Position numbers and translations under genes: made by a program. This document shows, piece after piece, positions 2,741-63,378 of a stretch of 64,000 nucleotides of DNA. Numbering within the stretch: position 1 is the stretch's first letter; the number at the start of each line of letters is the position of its first letter. This DNA is from Timaviella obliquedivisa GSE-PSE-MK23-08B (GTDB lineage Bacteria > Cyanobacteriota > Cyanobacteriia > Elainellales > Elainellaceae), in NCBI GenBank assembly GCA_019358855.1, contig JAHHII010000011.1, positions 62,001-126,000 of the forward strand. Reading direction: 5' to 3'. The notes beneath the pieces are model-generated. The model was not told the DNA's origin. It was given only the letters and a program-made list of their open reading frames with translations, and ran no database searches.

Positions 2741-4384
2741 CTACGGATTTCTGGGCTGATTCGCCTGAATTAGCCCAGAAGCACCCACCGTTTGAACGGT
2801 TAAGACCTGAGGTGGAGTCGCATCCGGCGGATAGATTAACTGCACATCAACCCGCCTTTGTCCACCTTTAGGTAACCTTAATCTTACTAATGGTTCCCCT
2901 TCCTGCCCCCGCTGCTGAACCACATGAACATAACGGCTTTGGGGAATGCCAAAGTCATTGGTATAGCTGAGGCGGATGGTGCCTCTAAAAGAGACTTGAT
3001 CGATGGGCGGCAATCGAAACCGCAGTCCGTCTTCTAGCTGCTCATCCTGAAGTGGAGTTTGCAGCATAATATTAACGGTTTGCGTGGTGTCTGTATCGTT
3101 GTACAGCGGCAAAGAGATATTGTAAAGCACGCCATAGTTGCCGTTCGCCCGATAAGCCGTATCAGGGTAGCGCACTAACATGGGGGCGCTTTGGATCTGT
3201 TTAGTGCCGAATGTATTGTGCTCGACGGTGCTAATGACGTAGGAAAACTCTTGCCCCGGTTTAGGAATAGTTACATGATTAACAGTAGCGCTGTCGGTTG
3301 CCAGTGCCGTCCATTGCGAACCTTGAGACACTCCAGCCACTCGCCCGTAGAAAAACCGCAAATAGGCGCGAGCATCGGGTGCAGTAGGACGGCGATCGCG
3401 CGGACCCGACAAGCCACCAGACACCAGTAGATTGAGCCATTCTGCCAAGCTAGGAACCCGTTCAGTCCCACTTTCGTTTCGAGGCGCATACATACCGAGA
3501 CTAGCCACATGAACCTTGCCACTGCTCGACAGCCGCATTAAAGCCGATCGCCCATTAATAGCGAGAGGGCGATTGTCAAAAGCAGGTTCAGCGGGCAAAG
3601 AAGGCTCATTTGTCCGACTTAATGGCATTGCAGAATTACTAGCCACACGAACCGGTCGAGGCGCAACAGCGGTAGTTGGTCGAGGAATTAAGTACCCTGG
3701 CGGCAACGTTCCGTCAGTCGGCACTGTCAGCTGCCGTAAAGGAATGGGTAAATTCATCAACAGCTTAGCCTGCTTAGGCGGAATAGTAATTTCTTCAGGC
3801 CATTGAGATTGACGTTGCTCCCGCAAAACCTCGGTCGTAATGCGACTACCGGGCCCTGCAAAAATTGCACCAGCCGGATTAGCTACATAGGCAGGTAAGT
3901 CAGTAAACGGCGCATCTTGGCTCAGGTAGCTTACCCCCTGCAAAATTTTAATGGTGACAGGCTCAGTTCCGGGGTTATAGACTACAACACCCATAAACAG
4001 TGTGCGCCTATCATCAGGGTTAATACCCCGCGCGATGTGATGGGCAAACAGGTCAAAGCGACCTTCAAAGGGAAAGTTTAAGTGCGCAGAGGAGTGACGC
4101 ATCCCCTCAGGAGGAAACGTAGAGAGCAGAATACCTTCTGACTGAACCACTTCTGGACTATTGCTATTAAATACTGGAACGCTGTCAAGCTGTCCAGGCA
4201 AGGCTCTGACATCTTGAGGACGAATGACTTCTGCTTGACGTTGAGGAACAGCGACCCCTTGCGGGTATCTCGAAGAGGGCGCTGGCGGGGACAAAGCAGG
4301 TGCAACTAGGGGAGCAGCATTAGCTTGAACCGGAGCAACTATTTGGGCTAATGAGAGGAGAGACAGAACCGTTAACATGTGCAA
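2741..4384 (-). CDS. DUF3370 family secreted protein
   Basis: A 547-residue protein of the cyanobacterial DUF3370 family. The N-terminus is hydrophobic (LTVLSLLSLAQIVAPVQANA), consistent with a signal peptide cleaved near residue 23, and the rest lacks membrane segments, so it is probably periplasmic or exported. Residues about 40-60 hold a proline-rich linker; a segment with RPQDVRALPGQLD starts the conserved part. The family has no assigned function. A short dispersed repeat (4251-4282) lies inside the coding sequence and encodes part of the linker (SSRYPQGVA) without breaking the frame. The gene stands alone, followed by a 36-bp gap to the glutathione transferase. Confidence 0.85.
   Translation of the reverse strand: MHMLTVLSLLSLAQIVAPVQANAAPLVAPALSPPAPSSRYPQGVAVPQRQAEVIRPQDVRALPGQLDSVPVFNSNSPEVVQSEGILLSTFPPEGMRHSSAHLNFPFEGRFDLFAHHIARGINPDDRRTLFMGVVVYNPGTEPVTIKILQGVSYLSQDAPFTDLPAYVANPAGAIFAGPGSRITTEVLREQRQSQWPEEITIPPKQAKLLMNLPIPLRQLTVPTDGTLPPGYLIPRPTTAVAPRPVRVASNSAMPLSRTNEPSLPAEPAFDNRPLAINGRSALMRLSSSGKVHVASLGMYAPRNESGTERVPSLAEWLNLLVSGGLSGPRDRRPTAPDARAYLRFFYGRVAGVSQGSQWTALATDSATVNHVTIPKPGQEFSYVISTVEHNTFGTKQIQSAPMLVRYPDTAYRANGNYGVLYNISLPLYNDTDTTQTVNIMLQTPLQDEQLEDGLRFRLPPIDQVSFRGTIRLSYTNDFGIPQSRYVHVVQQRGQEGEPLVRLRLPKGGQRRVDVQLIYPPDATPPQVLTVQTVGASGLIQANQPRNP
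4251..4282. repeat. short dispersed repeat, copy 1 (inside DUF3370 gene)
   Basis: A 32-bp sequence starting GCGACCCCTTGCGGG and ending GAGGGCGC. It matches the copy at 22889-22920 at about 27 of 32 positions and more loosely the copies at 23985-24016 and 58439-58470. It sits in the linker-coding part of the DUF3370 gene. It resembles in size and behaviour the very small dispersed repeats described in Nostoc-type genomes. Confidence 0.6.
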
Positions 4385-5123: not shown

Positions 5124-5585
5124 TTAAAGTTGAGAGTTTTGAGGTCTGACGGTTTTATTTGCCTAGTTTGTTACAGACTAGGGGAACTTTTTGGGAAGCA
5201 ATATAAAAAATATTTGGACGAGTTTATGGAGATTGCAGCAGGACTCGTGACGAAAATGAGTGTTGCTGAATTATGGCATGAGAATCTGGCTCCCCCTGCC
5301 CTCGCAAGGAAGAGTCCAGTAGTTAGGTTTACTCGGTAACGCTGCGCGATCGACCTCTCCCTCAGCCCTTCTTCTGAAAGAAAAGAGCGCTGGTAGATTC
5401 ATCCTTTTATCCGGTAATGTCCAAAAAGGATTGCCAACGATAATGATTAATTTTTTCCTCCAGTAAACAAATGTTTATTTTTTGTAAAAACGAGGCATTT
5501 ATCTCGACAAATCAGGACAATTGTACTAATCTAAATCAGGCTGAGCGCTGATGCATTTGTCCCTGATCTAAAGAGGAATTTGATC
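5124..5585. other. gene-free interval between tRNA-Gly and the VOC gene
   Basis: About 460 bp without a credible gene. It contains one copy of a degenerate dispersed repeat (5288-5401, listed separately). The right end holds the VOC gene leader with GAGGAA just before the ATG. The only open frame here overlaps the tRNA and has no coding features. Confidence 0.5.
5288..5401. repeat. degenerate dispersed repeat, copy A
   Basis: About 114 bp running from GGCTCCCCCTGCCCTCGC through GACCTCTCCCTCAGCCC to TAGATTCAT. It aligns along its length with the copy at 13251-13361, and its right half aligns with 56520-56571. Pyrimidine-rich and purine-rich segments within it can pair (CCTCTCC with GGAGAGG in copy B), so it may fold as RNA. 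Such sequences are common between genes in cyanobacteria. Confidence 0.6.
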
Positions 5586-6074
5586 ATGAGCACCGTAAAA
5601 CCTATTCCAGATCACTACCCCACGGCAACGCCTTATTTAACGGTTAAGGATGCTGTCAAAGCGATCGAGTTTTATAAACAGGCATTTGGCGCAACAGAAT
5701 CGATGCGGCTGGTAACTCCTTCGGGAACAATTGGACATGCTGAGATTATCATTGGGACATCTCCGATTATGCTTTCTGATGAGTTTCCAGAGATGGGAAT
5801 GCACAGCCCACAAGCGTTAGGGAGTTCGCCCGTCAGTATTCATCTCTATGTTGAGGATGCTGATGCAACGTTCAATCAGGCGATCGCAGCAGGCGCAAAA
5901 GAAATGATGGCAATTGAAAATCAGTTCTATGGCGATCGCATGGGTACAATTATTGACCCTTTTGGACATACTTGGATGATTGCAACGCACCAAGAGGATG
6001 TGTTGCCAGAAGAATTACAACAGCGTTTTATCGCTCTGTATGGTGATGGCGGTTCTATTACATCGAGCCAGTAA
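5586..6074 (+). CDS. VOC family protein (glyoxalase/bleomycin-resistance fold, PhnB-like)
   Basis: A 162-residue vicinal-oxygen-chelate protein. The opening YPTATPYLTVKDAVKAIEFY and the downstream GHAEIIIGTSPIMLSDEF are typical of the PhnB-like/YcdG-type branch, and the end FGHTWMIATHQEDV supplies the last strand with a conserved His and the usual HxEDV. VOC proteins bind metal and catalyse varied reactions; the substrate here cannot be told. The start at ATG 5586 has GAGG about 8 nt upstream; the frame also opens at TTG 5580. It is a single gene, convergent with the ATPase gene at 6196. Confidence 0.85.
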   Translation: MSTVKPIPDHYPTATPYLTVKDAVKAIEFYKQAFGATESMRLVTPSGTIGHAEIIIGTSPIMLSDEFPEMGMHSPQALGSSPVSIHLYVEDADATFNQAIAAGAKEMMAIENQFYGDRMGTIIDPFGHTWMIATHQEDVLPEELQQRFIALYGDGGSITSSQ

Positions 6075-6099
6075 GCCGAGCGAATAGAAACCTATTTTG

Positions 6100-6129
6100 A
6101 CCTTCCTTTGAGTTAGCTTCAGGGAAGGT
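6100..6129. terminator. possible bidirectional terminator hairpin
   Basis: ACCTTCC (6100-6106) pairs with GGAAGGT (6123-6129) around a 16-nt loop, between two convergent genes. A second small hairpin CAGTTT/AAACTG follows on the plus strand. The U-run is weak, so terminator function is only suggested by position. Confidence 0.4.
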
Positions 6130-6195
6130 TGTCAGTTTTAAACTGGCAAGAATTCAGCCGGCTAGCGGCAAGTTCATCATCCAGTCAAAAATTTC

Positions 6196-7608
6196 TTAAG
6201 AACTGCGCTGTATAAATCCTGGAAGATCAACTTGAATGTGTTGAATCATTTTGATGAAATTGCTGATTTTAATAATTTGCTCACCAATGTTTTCATGCTC
6301 TCGCATAACTTCTTCAGGATTAAAAACGGTTTCTTCTAATTGAGAACGGTAGTTTTTGACTGCTGTTTGAATCTCGACCACACTATCGTTCAGTTTCAAA
6401 ATTAACTGGCTGATAATTCTCACCCCTCTAGCATTTACGTCTTCTGACACAAGGCGCAATGCTTGGATTTTTTCTAAGTCTGTTTGCAATGCATCAATAG
6501 ATTCCTTGAGTTGAGCCACTGTAGCTTTTAGATCTTGATAGCGCTGCTCAATAAGCGGTGGAAGCGGTAGGAGAACAGTTCGATCGCGACGGTTTGGCTT
6601 GTATTCCCAGGGTGGCGTGAAGCTGAGCATTTGAGTGGTCAGGCTTTCGTAGCTACGAGAAAGAGAAAGGCGATCGCCCTCTTTTTCTTTAAGTACTGCA
6701 ATTTCTTCACCGTAGGAATATCGGGGGAAATGCTGAATCTGAACTTCGTCAAAATAATTGCTGAGGTTGCACTGGGGCAAGTTATAAATTCTTTGAAAAA
6801 GCTGTTCAAATCCAAGTTGATAGCCTAAAAAGCTGTCTTGCCGAGTGCCAAATCGCCAGTGCTGCCGCAAAGTTGTTTCAGAGGCTTCTACCCGTGAGGG
6901 CAAAGGAAAAATGGTTAGAGGACGTAGGTCATCGGATTGTTTGCGATAGGCAGCAGCGTTGCTTGCTAGGTCTAAAACGCCTTCTAGGCTTTGGCGATTA
7001 GGGGTAAAAACCGTGACCAGCTTTTCCGGCATGAGAGCCGTACAAATGCCGCTGGTATCGGTGGCACCTGTACGAGAGTCGATCAACACGTACTGGTAGT
7101 TTTGTTTAAGACGTTCAGAAAAGAAGCGAAAGAAGGAGGGCGATCGCTCGTAAAACTCAATCCAATTGAAGGAATTGATCCGTTGTGAGTACTGTTCATC
7201 AAACCGTCCTGCCTTAAGTAGATAAACGTAGGAAACAGGGGTTTTAAGAATGTAAGGCTGCAAACTCAATTTGCGAACCGCAGCTTCCACGGATGCCTCA
7301 TCCTCAGAGTTAAATCGGGGTTGAGTCATTGCCTCAGAAATCGACAAAAATAAGTCAATTAATCCGGGTGCTTCCTTCAATCCTTGTTCGTACGCTCTAG
7401 CATCAACGGATTGCAGTTTTTCCCGGTCACGGAAATACCAGTGCAGCCCAGGCGCTTCGAGATCCCAATCGATCATGAGTACTTTTTTGCGCGATCGCTT
7501 TGCCAATAGGCACGCCACATTTGCCAGCGCCATCGATCGCCCCGTGCCGCCTTTATAGGAATAAAAAGTAATGATTTCTCCGGGCGGCTTTGTCAAATTT
7601 ATAGCCAT
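6196..7608 (-). CDS. ParA/MinD-like ATPase with KGGTGR variant P-loop
   Basis: A 470-residue cytosolic ATPase of the MinD/ParA (SIMIBI) class. The deviant Walker A reads KGGTGRSM (residues 19-26): the signature Lys19 is kept but the usual P-loop Lys is Arg24, as in the known KGGVGR-variant subfamily. Walker A' is DWDLEAPGL (from Asp47) and the Walker B-like stretch is YVLIDSRTG. After the ATPase core, residues about 345-465 look helical and coiled-coil forming. It is the last gene of a three-gene unit, 12 nt after the TIR gene. Family members are often encoded beside TIR or other conflict-type domains; a signalling or NTP-dependent switch role is inferred. It is unlikely to be a chromosome-partition ParA, since no ParB is nearby. 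Confidence 0.82.
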   Translation of the reverse strand: MAINLTKPPGEIITFYSYKGGTGRSMALANVACLLAKRSRKKVLMIDWDLEAPGLHWYFRDREKLQSVDARAYEQGLKEAPGLIDLFLSISEAMTQPRFNSEDEASVEAAVRKLSLQPYILKTPVSYVYLLKAGRFDEQYSQRINSFNWIEFYERSPSFFRFFSERLKQNYQYVLIDSRTGATDTSGICTALMPEKLVTVFTPNRQSLEGVLDLASNAAAYRKQSDDLRPLTIFPLPSRVEASETTLRQHWRFGTRQDSFLGYQLGFEQLFQRIYNLPQCNLSNYFDEVQIQHFPRYSYGEEIAVLKEKEGDRLSLSRSYESLTTQMLSFTPPWEYKPNRRDRTVLLPLPPLIEQRYQDLKATVAQLKESIDALQTDLEKIQALRLVSEDVNARGVRIISQLILKLNDSVVEIQTAVKNYRSQLEETVFNPEEVMREHENIGEQIIKISNFIKMIQHIQVDLPGFIQRSS

Positions 7609-7620
7609 TTTGCACCGCTT

Positions 7621-8301
7621 CTACAATCTGGGGAAGGAACTACTGCGAACACCCGTCACCTCCCTAATCCAGTCTAGAACTTCTGATTCATCTGGGAGGT
7701 TAAAATTATCACAATCAAGATAAGGATCGGTGGAAAGTGCCTCTAATTCTCGGCATCGATCGTAAATGTAAGCCGCAATTTCTTGAATTTTGGAGTTGAA
7801 GTTAGAGTTGCGAGACATTTCTCTTCCGCCCAATTGAAAACTTTGAAAGTCGTAGTATGCCCGTCGGTTTTTAATCTCGCTCGGTAAAAACTTTAGTCCT
7901 CGAAAAACAATGGGAATGATTAAGCCGTGCTTTAACTGAGCCTCCGAATCGACTAAGGGCAAGCGCTTACTTTCAAGCTTTTCCATTGCCTTATACTCGC
8001 GGGCACAAAAGGTTTTGTGCTCGTCAAAATAGGTCGGCACATAAACCACAACCATACAGGCGCTTTCACAAAGGGCTTTCGCAAGCGCCTGGTTATAGAA
8101 GTCACCTCCTTTGAGCCGCTCCCAATCGACGTAAACTTCCTTCGTTGTCAACGCTTCAAGTTCATTTGAAAGAGCAGTCTTGAGTTGACGAATGATCGTC
8201 TCTAGAAGGTTCTTATCAGTCGGTAAAGAGCGATCGCCATGACGAAAACTGATAAAGCAAGAATATTTTAGGGGCATCGAATTTAACTTCCCCATACCCA
8301 C
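7621..8301 (-). CDS. TIR domain protein
   Basis: A TIR-domain protein of up to 226 residues. Box 1 is CFISFRHGD (residues 15-23); strand B/loop is VYVDWERLKGGDFY; the alpha-C region VVVYVPTYFDEHKTFCAREY holds the conserved Cys99 and Glu102, the Glu used for NAD+ hydrolysis in enzymatic TIRs. There is no signal peptide or membrane segment, so it is cytosolic. GTG at 8301 abuts the stop codon of the upstream gene; ATG at 8277 (preceded by GGGGAAG) is the likelier start and gives the usual TIR N-terminus. Whether it cleaves NAD+ or only binds proteins is unknown. Tight coupling with the ATPase points to one joint function. Confidence 0.85.
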   Translation of the reverse strand: MGMGKLNSMPLKYSCFISFRHGDRSLPTDKNLLETIIRQLKTALSNELEALTTKEVYVDWERLKGGDFYNQALAKALCESACMVVVYVPTYFDEHKTFCAREYKAMEKLESKRLPLVDSEAQLKHGLIIPIVFRGLKFLPSEIKNRRAYYDFQSFQLGGREMSRNSNFNSKIQEIAAYIYDRCRELEALSTDPYLDCDNFNLPDESEVLDWIREVTGVRSSSFPRL

Positions 8302-9621
8302 TTACGGCTGATAAACCTTAGCTGGAACGCCTTGTTGTTGCAACTGTTGTGCCATTTGCTCGGCACTTGCAGAATCTCCAAAAGACCCCATCTGCACCTT
8401 TGCCCCATCGTCAAAGTTTCGCACATAAGCATCACTAATCGCTTGCCTGGCTTGAGAAAGGCTGGGGTCGCCTGTATATTCAGTGACCACGTAGTAGCGA
8501 GTAACTGGGGGAGGAGCCTGGGCGATCGGGGGGGCAGGGGCAGCAGGTGGCGCAGGTGCTGGTGCGGGTCGTCTAGCAGCAGGCTGAGGGGCAGGCGTAG
8601 CTATCTGTGGGGCAGGCGGCACATAGGCGGGTGCGGCTGCTTGGACAGGCGCTTGGGGTTCAGGAGGGAGTTCAGACTGACGAATCACAGGTCGAGAGGG
8701 AATAGTAACCGTTTGCAAGGGCTGCTGAGTGACCGCAGCAGAAAGCCTGGGTGCATTAGTTAGAGGGCTGGGTTCAGGGTCAGTTGAGCGAGGTGAATCG
8801 GTTGGCGAAAGCGTAGGTGCAGTAGTTTGTGGAACCGTGACTACTGTTGAGGGGCGATCGTTCTTGGGAAGCTGACTGAGTGTGTTGAGGTTAACATCCA
8901 TAAACTCGTCAGAGGCTAAGTTAGGGGATAAAGATTGATTCTCGCTGGGTGGAGTTGTAATGACTGAGTTTTTCTCGTCCTGGCGACCTAAAGCCGCCAG
9001 GAAGCCAAGACTAGAAGGATACAGGAGGACGTATCCTAAGCTAATGCTAGAGAGAAGGAGCAGTAGCATCGAGCCAACCCCTAGAGGCGTTAGGAGCGTG
9101 TCTAAAAGGGTGGACTTGCGATCGATAGACTGGGCTGTGGGGTGGGAAAAACTTTTGAGCAGTTCTTCTGAAGAAGCAAAGTAATCATGAGTCAGTTCGG
9201 GCTGCTGAGGGGCGGGCTGTTGAGAGGCGATCGAAGCCGCAAGAGGCAACCCTGGGGATGTCTGCGGAGCAGCGCGCATTTCCCGCACTACTCGCCGGGC
9301 ATCAAACTTAGAGAAATTAGACAGGGGAGAATGGGAAGAAGCTTCATCCCAAGCATCTAACTCCATGGGCTGGGGCGTGGCGTAATCTGGCGCATAATTT
9401 GGTAAGGGTGGCATGAGGGGAGCTTGACTTGCTTGCGGACTGTTGCGGAGAGCCGGAGCTAAGTTCTGCCCGCGCATCCTGCCCAATTGCCGATATCGTT
9501 GCTGACGGTAGCGAATTAGCTCATCTTCTAACTGCACGTCTAAATTGTCCAACGCCTTTTGCAGCATCAGATGTAAGGTGGAAGGCTCGGGGCTAAAAGG
9601 TTCAACAGAGGAAGGGCGCAT
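8302..9621 (-). CDS. membrane protein with proline-rich linker and SPOR-like C-terminus
   Basis: A 439-residue protein from ATG 9621 (AGGAG upstream); the open frame extends to 9690 without a ribosome binding site. The N-terminal part is predicted cytoplasmic with a helical segment (LMLQKALDNLDVQLEDELIRY region). A single transmembrane segment, SMLLLLLSSISLGYVLLYP, lies near the middle. Then comes a Pro/Ala-rich linker over 100 residues long, and the last 70 residues read like a SPOR domain (KVQMGSFGDSASAEQM, QQQGVPAKVY). SPOR domains bind denuded peptidoglycan at division sites, so the C-terminus should be periplasmic. Its stop codon directly touches the TIR gene, which makes co-transcription likely, although a functional link between wall binding and TIR signalling is not established. 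Confidence 0.72.
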   Translation of the reverse strand: MRPSSVEPFSPEPSTLHLMLQKALDNLDVQLEDELIRYRQQRYRQLGRMRGQNLAPALRNSPQASQAPLMPPLPNYAPDYATPQPMELDAWDEASSHSPLSNFSKFDARRVVREMRAAPQTSPGLPLAASIASQQPAPQQPELTHDYFASSEELLKSFSHPTAQSIDRKSTLLDTLLTPLGVGSMLLLLLSSISLGYVLLYPSSLGFLAALGRQDEKNSVITTPPSENQSLSPNLASDEFMDVNLNTLSQLPKNDRPSTVVTVPQTTAPTLSPTDSPRSTDPEPSPLTNAPRLSAAVTQQPLQTVTIPSRPVIRQSELPPEPQAPVQAAAPAYVPPAPQIATPAPQPAARRPAPAPAPPAAPAPPIAQAPPPVTRYYVVTEYTGDPSLSQARQAISDAYVRNFDDGAKVQMGSFGDSASAEQMAQQLQQQGVPAKVYQP

Positions 9622-9885
9622 TCTTTGATTTACTCCTGCCGGGTGGTCACTAGGTAAACATTTATAAATTAATGGAGGGCAGAGGGACATTTAGAGTGAA
9701 ACGCACTTAAAAAAGAGGGAGCAAATCTGAGGTAAAAGTGCTAAACCTAGCGCCAGACAACTATCGAGATCAGTCAAGATCAGTTGAACACGCTATTGAC
9801 AGAATTTAAAGTGATTCTGCGATCTCAATGGCTAATGATATCTAATTTTTAGAAAAATGCTTTCGAGACATAAGTAGTCTGCACC

Positions 9886-10458
9886 ATGGTCGAACCAATT
9901 CAATCTCTTAGTCAAATTTTAGGGGGTCTAGAAAGTCAGGACAGTTGGAAAGGCAGACAGCAGCTTCAGCAAGTTTTGTCTCGGTGGTCAACTGTGGTAG
10001 GCGAGGCGGTGGCGGCACAAACTCGCCCGACTGGCATCCAACGACGGGTGCTGCTAGTTGCGGCTTCTAGCTCGGCTTGGGCGCAAAACTTGGGTTTTGA
10101 ACGCATCCGAATTTTAGAGAAGCTCAATGCCTTGACGACTTTCAATCTGACCGATATTCGGTTTTCTACGGCGCAATGGCGATCGGAATACAGTTTGATT
10201 GCTGCAAATATTTCAGAATCCGCTATCCTTTGGCGAGACCATCCTAGTCGGTTGGCAGATCTCTCTTTGCTTCCAGCCAGTGCGACTCCAGTTGCTCCTG
10301 ATTCTCAGTCTGCTTTTCGTAATTGGGCAAGAGTGATGCGATCGCGGGCGCAGCATCTGCCTTTGTGTCCGGCTTGCCAATGTCCGGCACCGCCAGGAGA
10401 ATTGAGCCGATGGCAGGTTTGTTCGCTTTGTGCGGCTCAACGGTTTGGACGAGAATAA
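9886..10458 (+). CDS. DUF721/DciA-like protein with C-terminal zinc ribbon
   Basis: A 190-residue protein. The N-terminal 90 residues fit DUF721, the DciA-type KH-like domain that loads the DnaB replicative helicase in many bacteria (LQQVLSRWSTVVGEAVA, then VLLVAASSSAWAQNLGF). The C-terminus has two CxxC pairs (LCPACQCP and VCSLCAAQRF), typical of a zinc ribbon seen in cyanobacterial members. Helicase loading is inferred from the family. It is followed 48 bp later by the MBOAT gene on the same strand and diverges from the SPOR/TIR/ATPase unit. Confidence 0.8.
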   Translation: MVEPIQSLSQILGGLESQDSWKGRQQLQQVLSRWSTVVGEAVAAQTRPTGIQRRVLLVAASSSAWAQNLGFERIRILEKLNALTTFNLTDIRFSTAQWRSEYSLIAANISESAILWRDHPSRLADLSLLPASATPVAPDSQSAFRNWARVMRSRAQHLPLCPACQCPAPPGELSRWQVCSLCAAQRFGRE

Positions 10459-53270: not shown

Positions 53271-53555
53271 ATGCAAGCCTACAAACTCAAAGGAACGATC
53301 GATCAATCAGGTCATTTAAATATTACGGAGCCGATCAATTTATCTCCTGGTGAGGTGGAAGTCATCGTCTTACAATCCTCTTTCACAGATGATAAGGTTG
53401 CCTCTTCTAAGGAGACACAAACAACACCTCCTAAAAAGAGAAAGACAATTGTAAAAGCGTTCCAAGATTTATTTGAAAACACTGAGCCTGCACCTCCAGA
53501 CTTTGACCCAGATCAAGCTAGATGGGAAGCGTTGAAAGAGAAATACGACCTGTGA
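53271..53555 (+). CDS. antitoxin-like protein (partner of PIN toxin)
   Basis: A 94-residue protein from ATG 53271 (AGGAG upstream). The N-terminal half has the look of a short antitoxin in cyanobacteria (YKLKGTIDQSGHLNI, then LSPGEVEVIVL); the middle is a low-complexity basic linker (PPKKRKT), and the C-terminus is acidic and Trp-containing. No DNA-binding motif was recognised for certain. Its stop codon overlaps the PIN gene start (GTGA), the classic antitoxin-toxin coupling. Function inferred from context. Confidence 0.65.
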   Translation: MQAYKLKGTIDQSGHLNITEPINLSPGEVEVIVLQSSFTDDKVASSKETQTTPPKKRKTIVKAFQDLFENTEPAPPDFDPDQARWEALKEKYDL

Positions 53556-53965
53556 AAGTTCTACTCGACACAAACATTATTTTAGATTATGCACTTGAAC
53601 GACCTCCTTTCTGGCAAGTAAGTGAACAAATTTTTCTCTTGCTCGAACAATTTCAGGGTTATGTCTCTGCTTCAACTTTTAGCGATCTGTATTACATCAT
53701 TCGCAAACAACGGGGACACAACTGGACACTCACTTTCCTGAATCGGTTGGTGAGCGTTTGCCAAATTGCACTGGTGGATCAGACGGTAATCTTAATGGCG
53801 CTAACCGTAAATTTTAGAGACTTTGAAGATGCAATCCAATACAGTACTGCTGTGATCAATCACTTGGATGCCATTGTCACCCGCAATGCCCAAGATTTTG
53901 CTGAAGCAGCATTGCCAATTATGACTCCTGATAGCCTGATTCAAGAAATAACCCATTCTGCTTGA
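53552..53965 (+). CDS. PIN-domain toxin-type ribonuclease (VapC-like)
   Basis: A 137-residue PIN protein from GTG 53552. The first acidic motif is LLDTNIILDYAL; the second is in TFSDLYYIIRKQ; the third, FRDFEDAIQYSTAVI, gives the conserved Asp/Glu; and VTRNAQDF supplies the last. These acids bind Mg2+ for RNase activity. The overlap with the upstream antitoxin gene and the small size make a type II toxin likely. The plus-strand pair is unrelated in sequence to the DUF433/DUF5615 pair at the left edge. Confidence 0.85.
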   Translation: MKVLLDTNIILDYALERPPFWQVSEQIFLLLEQFQGYVSASTFSDLYYIIRKQRGHNWTLTFLNRLVSVCQIALVDQTVILMALTVNFRDFEDAIQYSTAVINHLDAIVTRNAQDFAEAALPIMTPDSLIQEITHSA

Positions 53966-60624: not shown

Positions 60625-63378
60625 ATGCACTACGAATATCAGGTTGGGGGCAGTCTCAAACTAAACTCTCCTAGCTATGTAACTCGCCGGGCTGACACTG
60701 AACTGTACAACGCCATTGTTGCAGGTGAGTTTTGCTACGTTTTTAATGCACGCCAAATGGGTAAGTCTAGCTTGCGCGTCAGGACACAGCACCAACTAAA
60801 ACAGGTAGGCATTCGTTCTGCATCGTTAGATATGACCAGTATTGGCAGCCAAGATCTAACGCCTCAGCAGTGGTATAAAACCTTAGCAGCCGACTTGTTA
60901 CGGAGCCTTAACTTGTGGCATCAGGTGAACCTGAAACTCTGGTGGCAAGAGCACAGTAGTATTTCTCCGCTACGGCAGTTAAATCTATTAATAGAGGAAA
61001 TTATTGAGGTTCATTATCCCCATGAGCATCTGGTGATTTTTGTCGATGAGGTGGATAGTGCTTTGAGTTTGAACTTTCCAGTCGATGACTTTTTTGCACT
61101 AATTCGCTATTGCTACAATCAACGCGCCGACCAACCCACCTACAACCGTCTGACTTGGGCTTTGTTTGGAGTCACAATTCCTTCTGATTTAATGCGCGAT
61201 CGCCATCGCACACCCTTCAATATTGGTCGAGCGATCGAGCTACAGGGTTTTCAAGAAGACGAGGCCGTTCCTCTGGTGGCAGGCTTAACGACCAGGGTTA
61301 ACAATGCTCAGGGCGTACTGCGAGAAATTTTGCACTGGACAAAAGGGCAGCCTTTTTTAACCCAAAAGCTCTGTCGGTTAGTGGTCGAGACTTGCGATAC
61401 TGTCAGCCGATGCCCCGTCATCATTCCGACAGGAACCGAAGGCTATTGGGTCGAACAGGTCGTCCAGTCTCAAATTATTGCTAACTGGACAACGCAAGAT
61501 CAGCCTGAGCATTTGCGCACCATCCGCGATCGTCTCCTATACAACGAAGCTATGGCAGGTCGTCTGCTCGGCATCTATCAGCGGATTTTGGCGGGCGAGG
61601 GAATTTCTAACGACGATAGTCCCGAACACATTGAGCTATTGCTGTCAGGACTCGTCGTTTCTCAACATGGCATTTTACAGGTTAAAAACGCCATCTATCA
61701 GAAGGTTTTCAACCCGTTGTGGGTGACCGAGCAACTCGAAAACCTACGTCCCTACACACCCAAATTCAACGCCTGGTTGGGGTCGCAGCAGCAAAACGAG
61801 TCCTACTTATTACAAGGGGCAGAGTTGCAAAAAGCCATGGTTTGGAAGACCAATCGAATGCTGAGCGACCTGGATTATCGTTTCATTAGTGCTAGCCAAG
61901 ACTTTGCCAAGCGATCGGTTGAAACCGACCTGGCAGTAGAAAAGTTAGAGCGCGAAAAAGCACAGTTTGCTCTCAAAGCCGCTCAAGATGCTCGCCAAAT
62001 TTTGTTAAATGCTCACCAATCTGCTCGCAACAGCACTAAAAATTTAAGGCTCGGGCGACGGTGGATTGCTGGAATTGCTGCGGGTGTAACGGGCATTATC
62101 TTTGTTCTACGATTAACGGGCGTGTTGCAGGGCGTAGAGTGGATGGCTCTCGATCGCTTTTTTCAACTTCGCCCTCCAGCAGCGATCGATGCGCGGATTA
62201 CCTTGGTCGAGATCGCGGAGGCGGACTTACAACAAATTGGACAATATCCTATGTCCGATCGCGTCCTCGCAACATCGCTAAAAAATCTTCAGCAATACCA
62301 GCCACAGTCCATTGGGTTAGATATTTATCGAGATTTATCAACTGCGCCCGGTCAAACTGAGCTTAATCAAATATTTCAAAATTCTGACAATATTATTGGG
62401 ATTCATAAAATTACTGGCGAACGAGTGGGACAGTCGCCAATTTTGATGGAGCGTCAGCAAGTAGGATTTGCTGACCAAGTTTTAGATGGTGACGGTAAAG
62501 TCCGCCGTGCTTTACTTTCAGTCCGCGCTGAAGGAAAGGTGCAGTTTAGTTTAGGGCTACGGTTGGCGATCGATTATCTTAAAACTAAGGGGATCGTTCC
62601 TCAACCCCGCTCCCATCACTCCCGTCAAATGCAATTGGGGAAGGCAATCTTGATACCCTTTCGCTCGGACGATGGCGGCTACGTGCGCACAGATGCAGCA
62701 GGATACCAAATTTTGATGAATTTTCGAGGGACACGGCAGCAATTTGTGACGCTGTCGATGACAGATGTATTAGCAAATCGTATTCCTGCTGAAAGCGTGC
62801 GCGATCGCATTGTGCTGATTGGCTATACTGCCGAAAGCGTTAACGACTTGTTCCAAACTTCCTATAGCAATCGAATTGTTGGAGTTCCGACTCAAATGTC
62901 GGGCGTTGTTCTCCATGCTAATGCAATCAGTCAGTTAATAGATGCGGCTTTAGGGGAACGTCCGCTTCTAAAAGTCTTAGATGAGCCTATAGAGTGGCTA
63001 TGGATTTTCCTGAGCGCGACGGTGGGCGCGGCTTTGGCTTGGCAGATCAAAACATCCAGAGTAATCGCCATTGCAGGAGTAATGGCGATCGTCGGAATAG
63101 TGGGCGGAGCTTATTTGGCATTTCTGCAAGGGTGGTGGCTGCCCATGATACCCGCAAGCCTCGGCTTGGCGATCGCGGCAGTTGTTTTACCCAACATTGC
63201 CACCCAACAATTAGAAAAAATTCAACTCCGCCAAACCGTTCGTTTACTGGTTTCTGCAACTCATCAACATTCTACTGCCGGGCGAATTGCGATTGAATAT
63301 CTCAAACAATCGGAAAGCAAAGAGAACCAAAAACTCATTGAAGAATTCTTAGTGCGCGAATTTTATCAACAGATTTAA
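60625..63378 (+). CDS. AAA-like ATPase domain fused to CHASE2 sensor domain, membrane protein
   Basis: A 917-residue protein. Residues 1-380 are an AAA-like (AAA_35-type) NTPase: YVTRRADTELYNAIV, P-loop-like FNARQMGKSSLRVR (GKS), and FVDEVDSAL for Walker B. A coiled coil follows (about 430-470: VEKLEREKAQFALKAAQDA), then a membrane helix (WIAGIAAGVTGIIFVLRL) and a periplasmic CHASE2 domain (about 505-780: LVEIAEADLQQIGQYP, QSIGLDIYRDL, VLIGYTAESVNDLF, VLHANAISQLI). Three more membrane helices close it. Such fusions are common in cyanobacteria and probably signal an unknown extracellular cue to the ATPase. Ligand unknown. Confidence 0.9.
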   Translation: MHYEYQVGGSLKLNSPSYVTRRADTELYNAIVAGEFCYVFNARQMGKSSLRVRTQHQLKQVGIRSASLDMTSIGSQDLTPQQWYKTLAADLLRSLNLWHQVNLKLWWQEHSSISPLRQLNLLIEEIIEVHYPHEHLVIFVDEVDSALSLNFPVDDFFALIRYCYNQRADQPTYNRLTWALFGVTIPSDLMRDRHRTPFNIGRAIELQGFQEDEAVPLVAGLTTRVNNAQGVLREILHWTKGQPFLTQKLCRLVVETCDTVSRCPVIIPTGTEGYWVEQVVQSQIIANWTTQDQPEHLRTIRDRLLYNEAMAGRLLGIYQRILAGEGISNDDSPEHIELLLSGLVVSQHGILQVKNAIYQKVFNPLWVTEQLENLRPYTPKFNAWLGSQQQNESYLLQGAELQKAMVWKTNRMLSDLDYRFISASQDFAKRSVETDLAVEKLEREKAQFALKAAQDARQILLNAHQSARNSTKNLRLGRRWIAGIAAGVTGIIFVLRLTGVLQGVEWMALDRFFQLRPPAAIDARITLVEIAEADLQQIGQYPMSDRVLATSLKNLQQYQPQSIGLDIYRDLSTAPGQTELNQIFQNSDNIIGIHKITGERVGQSPILMERQQVGFADQVLDGDGKVRRALLSVRAEGKVQFSLGLRLAIDYLKTKGIVPQPRSHHSRQMQLGKAILIPFRSDDGGYVRTDAAGYQILMNFRGTRQQFVTLSMTDVLANRIPAESVRDRIVLIGYTAESVNDLFQTSYSNRIVGVPTQMSGVVLHANAISQLIDAALGERPLLKVLDEPIEWLWIFLSATVGAALAWQIKTSRVIAIAGVMAIVGIVGGAYLAFLQGWWLPMIPASLGLAIAAVVLPNIATQQLEKIQLRQTVRLLVSATHQHSTAGRIAIEYLKQSESKENQKLIEEFLVREFYQQI

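Follow-up and report, generated by a model that had tools for sequence, protein, structure and literature searches.

A TIR gene and a ParA/MinD-like ATPase gene form a recurrent pair in Timaviella obliquedivisa and distant prokaryotes

On the minus strand of a 64,000-nucleotide stretch of the Timaviella obliquedivisa GSE-PSE-MK23-08B genome (contig JAHHII010000011.1; this whole stretch is called the window below), a small gene for a TIR protein lies between the gene of a SPOR-like membrane protein and that of a ParA/MinD-like ATPase. Which of these neighbors belongs with the TIR gene, and what might the resulting unit do for the cell? A first-pass annotation had read all three genes as one unit, in which a periplasmic sensor passes an envelope-stress signal to a TIR effector under the control of the ATPase. 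We find instead that the TIR and ATPase genes are a recurrent two-gene pair, present in distant lineages of bacteria and in an archaeon, and that the SPOR-like gene stands outside it. We take the pair for a probable immune or suicide module, with abortive infection as its probable role. The full scheme, in which a TIR effector, controlled by a ParA/MinD-type switch whose sensor is swappable, depletes NAD+ and so aborts infection, has in our judgment an even chance of being right.

Recurrence of the pair and its separation from the SPOR-like gene

All seven loci found to encode a TIR protein of the window's type carry the ATPase gene directly downstream on the same strand, and the TIR-ATPase link proposed in the first-pass annotation thus holds. 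A contig scan with the ATPase, which finds close relatives only, returned six loci (L105 to L110), five of which have a window-type TIR gene immediately before the ATPase gene in the same orientation. These five, with amino acid identities to the window proteins, are as follows:

L105, record titled Proteobacteria: TIR 47%, ATPase 56%
L106, Terriglobia: TIR 48%, ATPase 53%
L107, Bryobacterales: TIR 42%, ATPase 52%
L108, Verrucomicrobia: TIR 41%, ATPase 49%
L109, the archaeon Candidatus Methanoperedens: TIR 39%, ATPase 58% over a partial ATPase

At L110 (Adonisia turfae), a different TIR protein occupies the same upstream position. A search with a TIR profile built from the window and the five loci added a further pair, L122, from the phylum of the Terriglobia genome (TIR 33%, ATPase 45%). 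The identities of TIR and ATPase co-vary across the seven loci (r 0.69, Mantel p 0.0085, with the ATPase of L109 partial); the contigs of both L105 and L109 end inside the ATPase gene. Downstream genes are visible at five of the seven loci and, judged by eye and size, with part of the neighbors profiled or compared, include no common third gene. At L108 a gene for an AAA_35-WD40 protein (5517-9281) overlaps the end of the pair ATPase and is perhaps a third component there.

The two-gene cassette is rare. The TIR profile matched 1 of 386 genomes drawn from the window's own phylum, and 2 of 396, 1 of 375 and 1 of 318 in three further phylum draws. These draws are samples searched at different E-value limits, each count includes its seed genome, and scoring covered a fraction of the first-look candidates (in G000, for instance, 4 of 13), so the counts are lower bounds.

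The features of the locus are:

6196..7608, minus strand: ParA/MinD-like ATPase of 470 aa with a KGG(T/V)GR P-loop and a predicted C-terminal coiled coil (NF047398, 1e-38; Soj/FlhG/MinD-like model)
7534..7554, minus strand: P-loop KGGTGRS, residues 19-25, with K19, G20, G21, G23 and R24 invariant in seven aligned ATPases
7066..7080, minus strand: Walker B/switch-type motif DSRTG, residues 177-181, invariant in the same seven rows
6202..6558, minus strand: C-terminal helical or coiled-coil part of the ATPase, about residues 351-469
7621..8277, minus strand: TIR protein (PF13676 and fold), its likely start at ATG 8277 placed from relatives
7996..8007, minus strand: C-A-R-E motif of the TIR protein, Cys99 to Glu102 (numbered from GTG)
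7621..7704, minus strand: conserved C-terminal tail of the TIR protein, a possible docking site
8302..9690, minus strand: SPOR-like single-pass membrane protein, a neighbor outside the pair
9886..10458, plus strand: DciA (PF05258, 72.3 bits), the divergent conserved neighbor of the SPOR-like gene, also outside the pair

Three minus-strand open reading frames (ORFs) are present as first annotated, at 6196-7608, 7621-8301 and 8302-9690, with a 12-nt gap between TIR and ATPase. The claimed stop-start junction of 0 nt between the SPOR-like and TIR genes requires the GTG at 8301, where the TIR frame opens. The start that matches the relatives is the ATG at 8277: at L105-L108 the first possible TIR start puts a conserved Cys at residue 7 to 9 and a longer start is impossible, and at L109 and L122 the frames are longer, yet have a Met at the position matching ATG 8277. 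Because of the relatives' starts and the sequence GGGGAAG, found 9 nt before this ATG, the TIR protein probably begins at 8277, and the junction with the SPOR stop would therefore be 24 nt. A scan for promoters and terminators gave two terminator-like sites, fewer than in shuffled sequence, and two sites resembling promoters, which both lie on the plus strand.

The SPOR-like protein matches PF05036 at 22.4 bits (cut-off 21) over 29 residues, covering only profile positions 6-34 of 76. In a survey of 36 genomes of the order that counts the strain's own, it was matched in 34, as a core gene, the ATPase in two and a window-type TIR in one; 33 of the 34 genomes with the SPOR-like gene have no match to the TIR. 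The second ATPase, in G029, is distant (33-35%) and has its own, different TIR gene upstream; G029 is one of the two genomes with no SPOR match. In 19 of the 20 regions fetched (the exception is L047), as in the window, the SPOR-like gene and DciA stand divergently side by side, and no TIR or ATPase match occurs in these 20 regions. Downstream of it, 50 ORFs within 3 kb include no family common to more than four regions; the widest is a protein of 364-367 aa, by eye a HAMP-type sensor kinase, which is 66-75% identical in four of the 20 regions and starts 2-48 nt after the SPOR-like gene in three of them. In the other direction, no SPOR match was found in the 3.6 to 19 kb of DNA around each of the six other pair loci. 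G033, the one genome of the same genus that was searched, says little here. Both of its flanking contigs break at this place: the one with the SPOR gene stops within that gene, and the one carrying the DUF3370 gene and tRNA-Gly apparently stops about 14 nt beyond the tRNA match. The absence of the pair from G033 is therefore soft, as it could lie in an assembly gap.

On the order survey we reject the trio as a unit, and as a conserved scheme the coupling of envelope sensing to the TIR protein is refuted. A scheme confined to this genome, with the SPOR-like protein as an envelope-stress sensor that acts on the TIR by way of the ATPase, would fit the same-strand adjacency and the likely 24-nt gap, which permits co-transcription. 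The uneven distribution of the three genes and the pairing with DciA leave it highly improbable, and the periplasmic-sensor idea loses its support because the SPOR association fails in both directions and the conserved partner of the SPOR-like gene is DciA. Removing this gene from the picture averts a wrong envelope-stress hypothesis.

The two proteins

The ATPase matches NF047398 (AAA_KGGVGR) at 133.6 bits against a cut-off of 90. Its P-loop KGGTGRSM, first described as deviant, is indeed present, but is no peculiarity of this locus and is the norm in the group: KGGTGR occurs at six of the seven pair loci and KGGVGR at one (L109). The invariance of the P-loop positions and of DSRTG in all seven ATPases compared (the window and L105-L110) argues that nucleotide binding is kept. 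The structural model, used for fold class only given its mean confidence of 63, is closest in Foldseek to Soj, FlhG and MinD, with McdA also among the matches.

Similarity of the window ATPase to its relatives stops near residue 347, and what follows differs from locus to locus. In the window it appears to be a coiled coil, on weak coiled-coil profile matches and helices in the low-confidence model. The L122 ATPase ends in TPR_12 and that of L108 in SEFIR, TIR and AAA_35; at L105 a second TIR begins where the contig ends; L106 carries a 300-aa domain that is the C-terminal domain of the phage-defense candidate PDC-S65 (3.3e-49), which the L107 C-terminus resembles by alignment only. The L109 sequence ends before this part. 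Judged from sequence, the ATPase keeps its nucleotide-binding motifs and its C-terminal part is interchangeable. AAA_35 also occurs elsewhere in the window, in an AAA_35-CHASE2 protein at 60625-63378.

The TIR protein matches PF13676 (TIR_2) at 29.1 bits against a cut-off of 28. Cys99 and Glu102, pointed out in the first-pass annotation, are both present, and this Cys and Glu are found in all seven pair TIRs at pairwise identities of 29-64%. When solved structures are searched by profile, the C..E motif aligns with the WC..E (WCxxE) of the plant TIR RPV1, a weak match with E-values of 0.065 and up. Foldseek places the model (predicted local distance difference test 79.6, predicted template modeling score 0.81) closest to RUN1, with the NAD-bound E100A mutant among the RUN1 structures matched. 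Three enzymes tie in structural comparison: AbTir at Z 13.0 (root-mean-square deviation 3.0 over 130 aligned residues, with the same figures for 7uxu_A), RUN1 at Z 13.0 (2.9 over 143) and the SPARTA TIR at Z 12.9 (2.8 over 133). By alignment and model, the TIR protein keeps a catalytic-type Glu and a NADase-type TIR fold.

The SPARTA TIR depletes NAD+, and AbTir and RUN1 make signals. The tie between them is consistent with a different product, a diffusible signal nucleotide acting on an effector elsewhere or on the ATPase itself in place of NAD+ depletion. We consider this distinctly unlikely, as the downstream regions visible at five of the seven loci share no third gene by eye and size.

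Beyond the TIR domain, a tail of about 30 residues holds five positions (L202, P203, E207, W211 and F223) that are invariant in six of six proteins. In L122 the tail is mostly changed, with only the Pro and the terminal FPG stretch kept. Its conservation suggests that the tail is possibly a docking site. TIR proteins are abundant in the strain: of the ten TIR_2 matches in its genome, nine fall in larger open frames of 447 to 1129 aa.

Relation to known systems and proposed role

The pair is best read as a standalone relative of the FxsC and FxSxx-TPR proteins of FxSxx-COOH systems. All seven pair TIRs match FxsC_Nterm (34.1 to 44.2 bits), but all fall far below the cut-off of 130 bits for FxsC (NF040588), the window TIR reaching 37.1. 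The L122 ATPase scores 311 bits for FxSxx_TPR (NF040586) and so exceeds the cut-off of 300, in part owing to its TPRs, since the best stretch is the TPR half (residues 435-737) and repeats inflate scores; for the window ATPase no NF040586 match is listed with E-values of up to 1 allowed. The CxxxCxxC motif of radical SAM proteins occurs in no ORF of 150 aa or longer, either in the 64-kb window or in the sequence available around six pair loci, in a search run with no positive control. One 36-aa frame ending in FxSxx occurs in the window, inside the SPOR-like gene in another frame. We reject full FxSxx-COOH membership on the FxsC score below cut-off, the missing NF040586 match and the lack of a radical SAM candidate.

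In SPARTA and Thoeris systems the TIR protein is activated through, or acts on, a partner protein. The pair shares the TIR fold with them, but the partner here is a ParA-like ATPase and not Argonaute or a SIR2/SLOG/macro protein. No ThsA-type partner is present, the adjacent genes being those of the ATPase and the SPOR-like protein, and no ThsB_TIR match is listed for the window TIR. In PADLOC the ATPase core matches PDC-M28B at 2.8e-18; for PDC-S65, the source of the L106 C-terminal domain, a search with E-values of up to 1 allowed lists no match in the window ATPase.

In the portion of Anantharaman et al. (2013; PMC3710099) available to us, a dyad of HEPN (MAE_18760) and a ParA/Soj ATPase is described, with the ATPase as the postulated antitoxin. 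It likewise joins a small effector-like gene to a ParA/Soj-type ATPase, so the pairing principle is not new; here, however, the effector is a TIR protein and not HEPN, and the ATPase C-termini are larger and variable. The VMAP/AP-ATPase conflict systems, as far as the accessible text of PMC7159879 goes, also bring TIR and MinD/ParA-type domains together in predicted immunity, whereas the present system is a two-gene operon with conserved nucleotide motifs; no vWA-MoxR or AP-ATPase gene was recognized by eye beside the pair. A description of the TIR/KGGVGR-ATPase pair was not found in the open-access literature, where absence is weak evidence, and neither MinD nor ParA occurs in PMC8195603.

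In the mechanism that we favor, the C-terminal part of the ATPase (here the coiled coil) would sense an invader or damage, and nucleotide binding by the ParA/MinD-like core would dimerize or cluster the protein. The TIR proteins bound to it, perhaps by their conserved tail, would thereby be brought together into composite NAD+-cleaving sites, and the loss of NAD+ would stop the cell in abortive infection. If this is true, an ATPase of the MinD/ParA type, familiar from cell division and the partitioning of DNA, would switch on a TIR immune effector. The switch idea is directly testable, given the conserved pairing, a Glu that is conserved as well and C-terminal domains that can be swapped.

Several points weigh against this mechanism. 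To our knowledge, no activity is known for any member of the pair. The pair is on no visible mobile element and in no visible defense island: the genes around it look like housekeeping genes by eye, and recent horizontal transfer is invisible in composition, since the G+C content at third codon positions (0.435 and 0.463, vs 0.418-0.544 in five neighbors) and the density of HIP1 sites (4 in the 2.1-kb pair vs 105 in 64 kb) equal those of the host. The TIR protein has no match in plasmids (at 1e-8 and 0.1), phages or viral contigs, and the ATPase has none in phages. Five of the six other pair loci are from records of metagenome-assembled genomes. PADLOC matches to the window TIR are weak (best 0.0014), the P-loop has an Arg where the usual Lys stands, and related MinD/ParA domains are called inactive by Kaur et al. 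(2020) in the accessible part of PMC7159879. Finally, receptor and adaptor TIRs of animals fit the modeled fold almost as well as the enzymes do (Hydra TRR-2 at Z 12.9, MyD88 at 12.3), and the fold alone is therefore no proof of catalysis.

This last point, together with the resemblance of the ATPase to Soj, FlhG, MinD and McdA, would also suit a non-enzymatic pair, with the TIR protein as a scaffold and the ATPase as a positioning protein (MinD/McdA-like) and no role in conflict. We regard such a pair as quite improbable: Cys and Glu would hardly be kept in every pair TIR at such divergence, and the patchy distribution and conflict-type C-termini of the ATPases speak for conflict.

The wider ATPase family and other features of the window

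The ATPase extends well beyond the TIR pair, with matches in 15 of 386 genomes of the phylum at 1e-12, own genome included. Upstream genes were tabulated for 21 ATPase loci picked by similarity to the window ATPase (14 from the phylum search, one from the order search and six from the contig scan), a table without entries for the window, L122 or the plasmid loci L111-L114. In 20 of the 21 a same-strand upstream gene overlaps the ATPase or lies within 21 nt of it, with some overlaps exaggerated by taking the first start codon of each ORF; L099 has none. The upstream gene encodes a TIR protein at seven loci, a HEPN-like family at eight, a HigA-like helix-turn-helix (HTH) protein at four (L091 by profile, three by blastp) and EAD1 at one. 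PF05168 matches the HEPN-like genes at up to 0.01 in four of the eight and not in the others, and the two scores inspected are below cut-off. A HigB-like Gp49 gene precedes the HigA-like gene in both loci checked (L091 and L094).

Such neighbors bring in the main rival to the switch mechanism, a system of the toxin-antitoxin type in which the ATPase, as antitoxin (or kinase), silences a TIR toxin and the pair serves addiction or stress dormancy and not phage sensing. It follows the HEPN-ParA/Soj proposal in the available portion of PMC3710099, and the eight related ATPases behind HEPN-like genes and the four behind HigA-like genes fit it. The large interchangeable C-termini (TPR, SEFIR/TIR/AAA_35, PDC-S65 type) have the look of a sensor or adaptor and exceed the needs of a simple antitoxin; we hold the toxin-antitoxin account to be a serious but somewhat unlikely alternative. 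In cyanobacteria, HigB/HigA-like genes overlap a KGGVGR-type ATPase at L091 (5742-8339), at L094 (reverse) and likely at L092 and L096, in what looks like a three-part toxin-antitoxin-ATPase module.

More distant ATPases, with seven plasmid matches at 30-36%, adjoin TIR, SIR2, FRG and nucleoside deoxyribosyltransferase genes on rhizobial plasmids. On a Rhizobium beringeri plasmid (L111, 4998-7283), a KGGTGR ATPase is fused to an FGE-sulfatase domain and has a TIR gene directly upstream; the upstream gene encodes an HTH protein in L112 and an unnamed protein in L113 and L114. Returning to the switch mechanism, a tentative generalization, plausible though short of an even chance, is that KGGVGR ATPases constitute a third class of immune switch, alongside STAND/NLR and AAA+ proteins. 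A ParA/MinD-type core would be combined with swappable upstream effectors (TIR, HEPN-like, HigA/HigB-like, EAD1) and swappable C-terminal sensors (coiled coil, TPR, PDC-S65 domain, SEFIR/TIR/AAA_35), and the TIR pair would be one cassette shared by bacteria and an archaeon.

Elsewhere in the window, a PIN-domain (VapC-like) protein is encoded at 53522-53965. The segment at 5262-5429 belongs to a dispersed repeat some 150 bp long, of which the strain's own genome has at least 32 more matches at 70-77% identity; it reaches no Rfam family at gathering score and has no match in the same-genus G033 among the 40 candidates scored per genome. A shorter stretch of about 27 to 43 bp at 4235-4285 recurs at 88-97% identity at six other places in the own genome and at 11 in G033.

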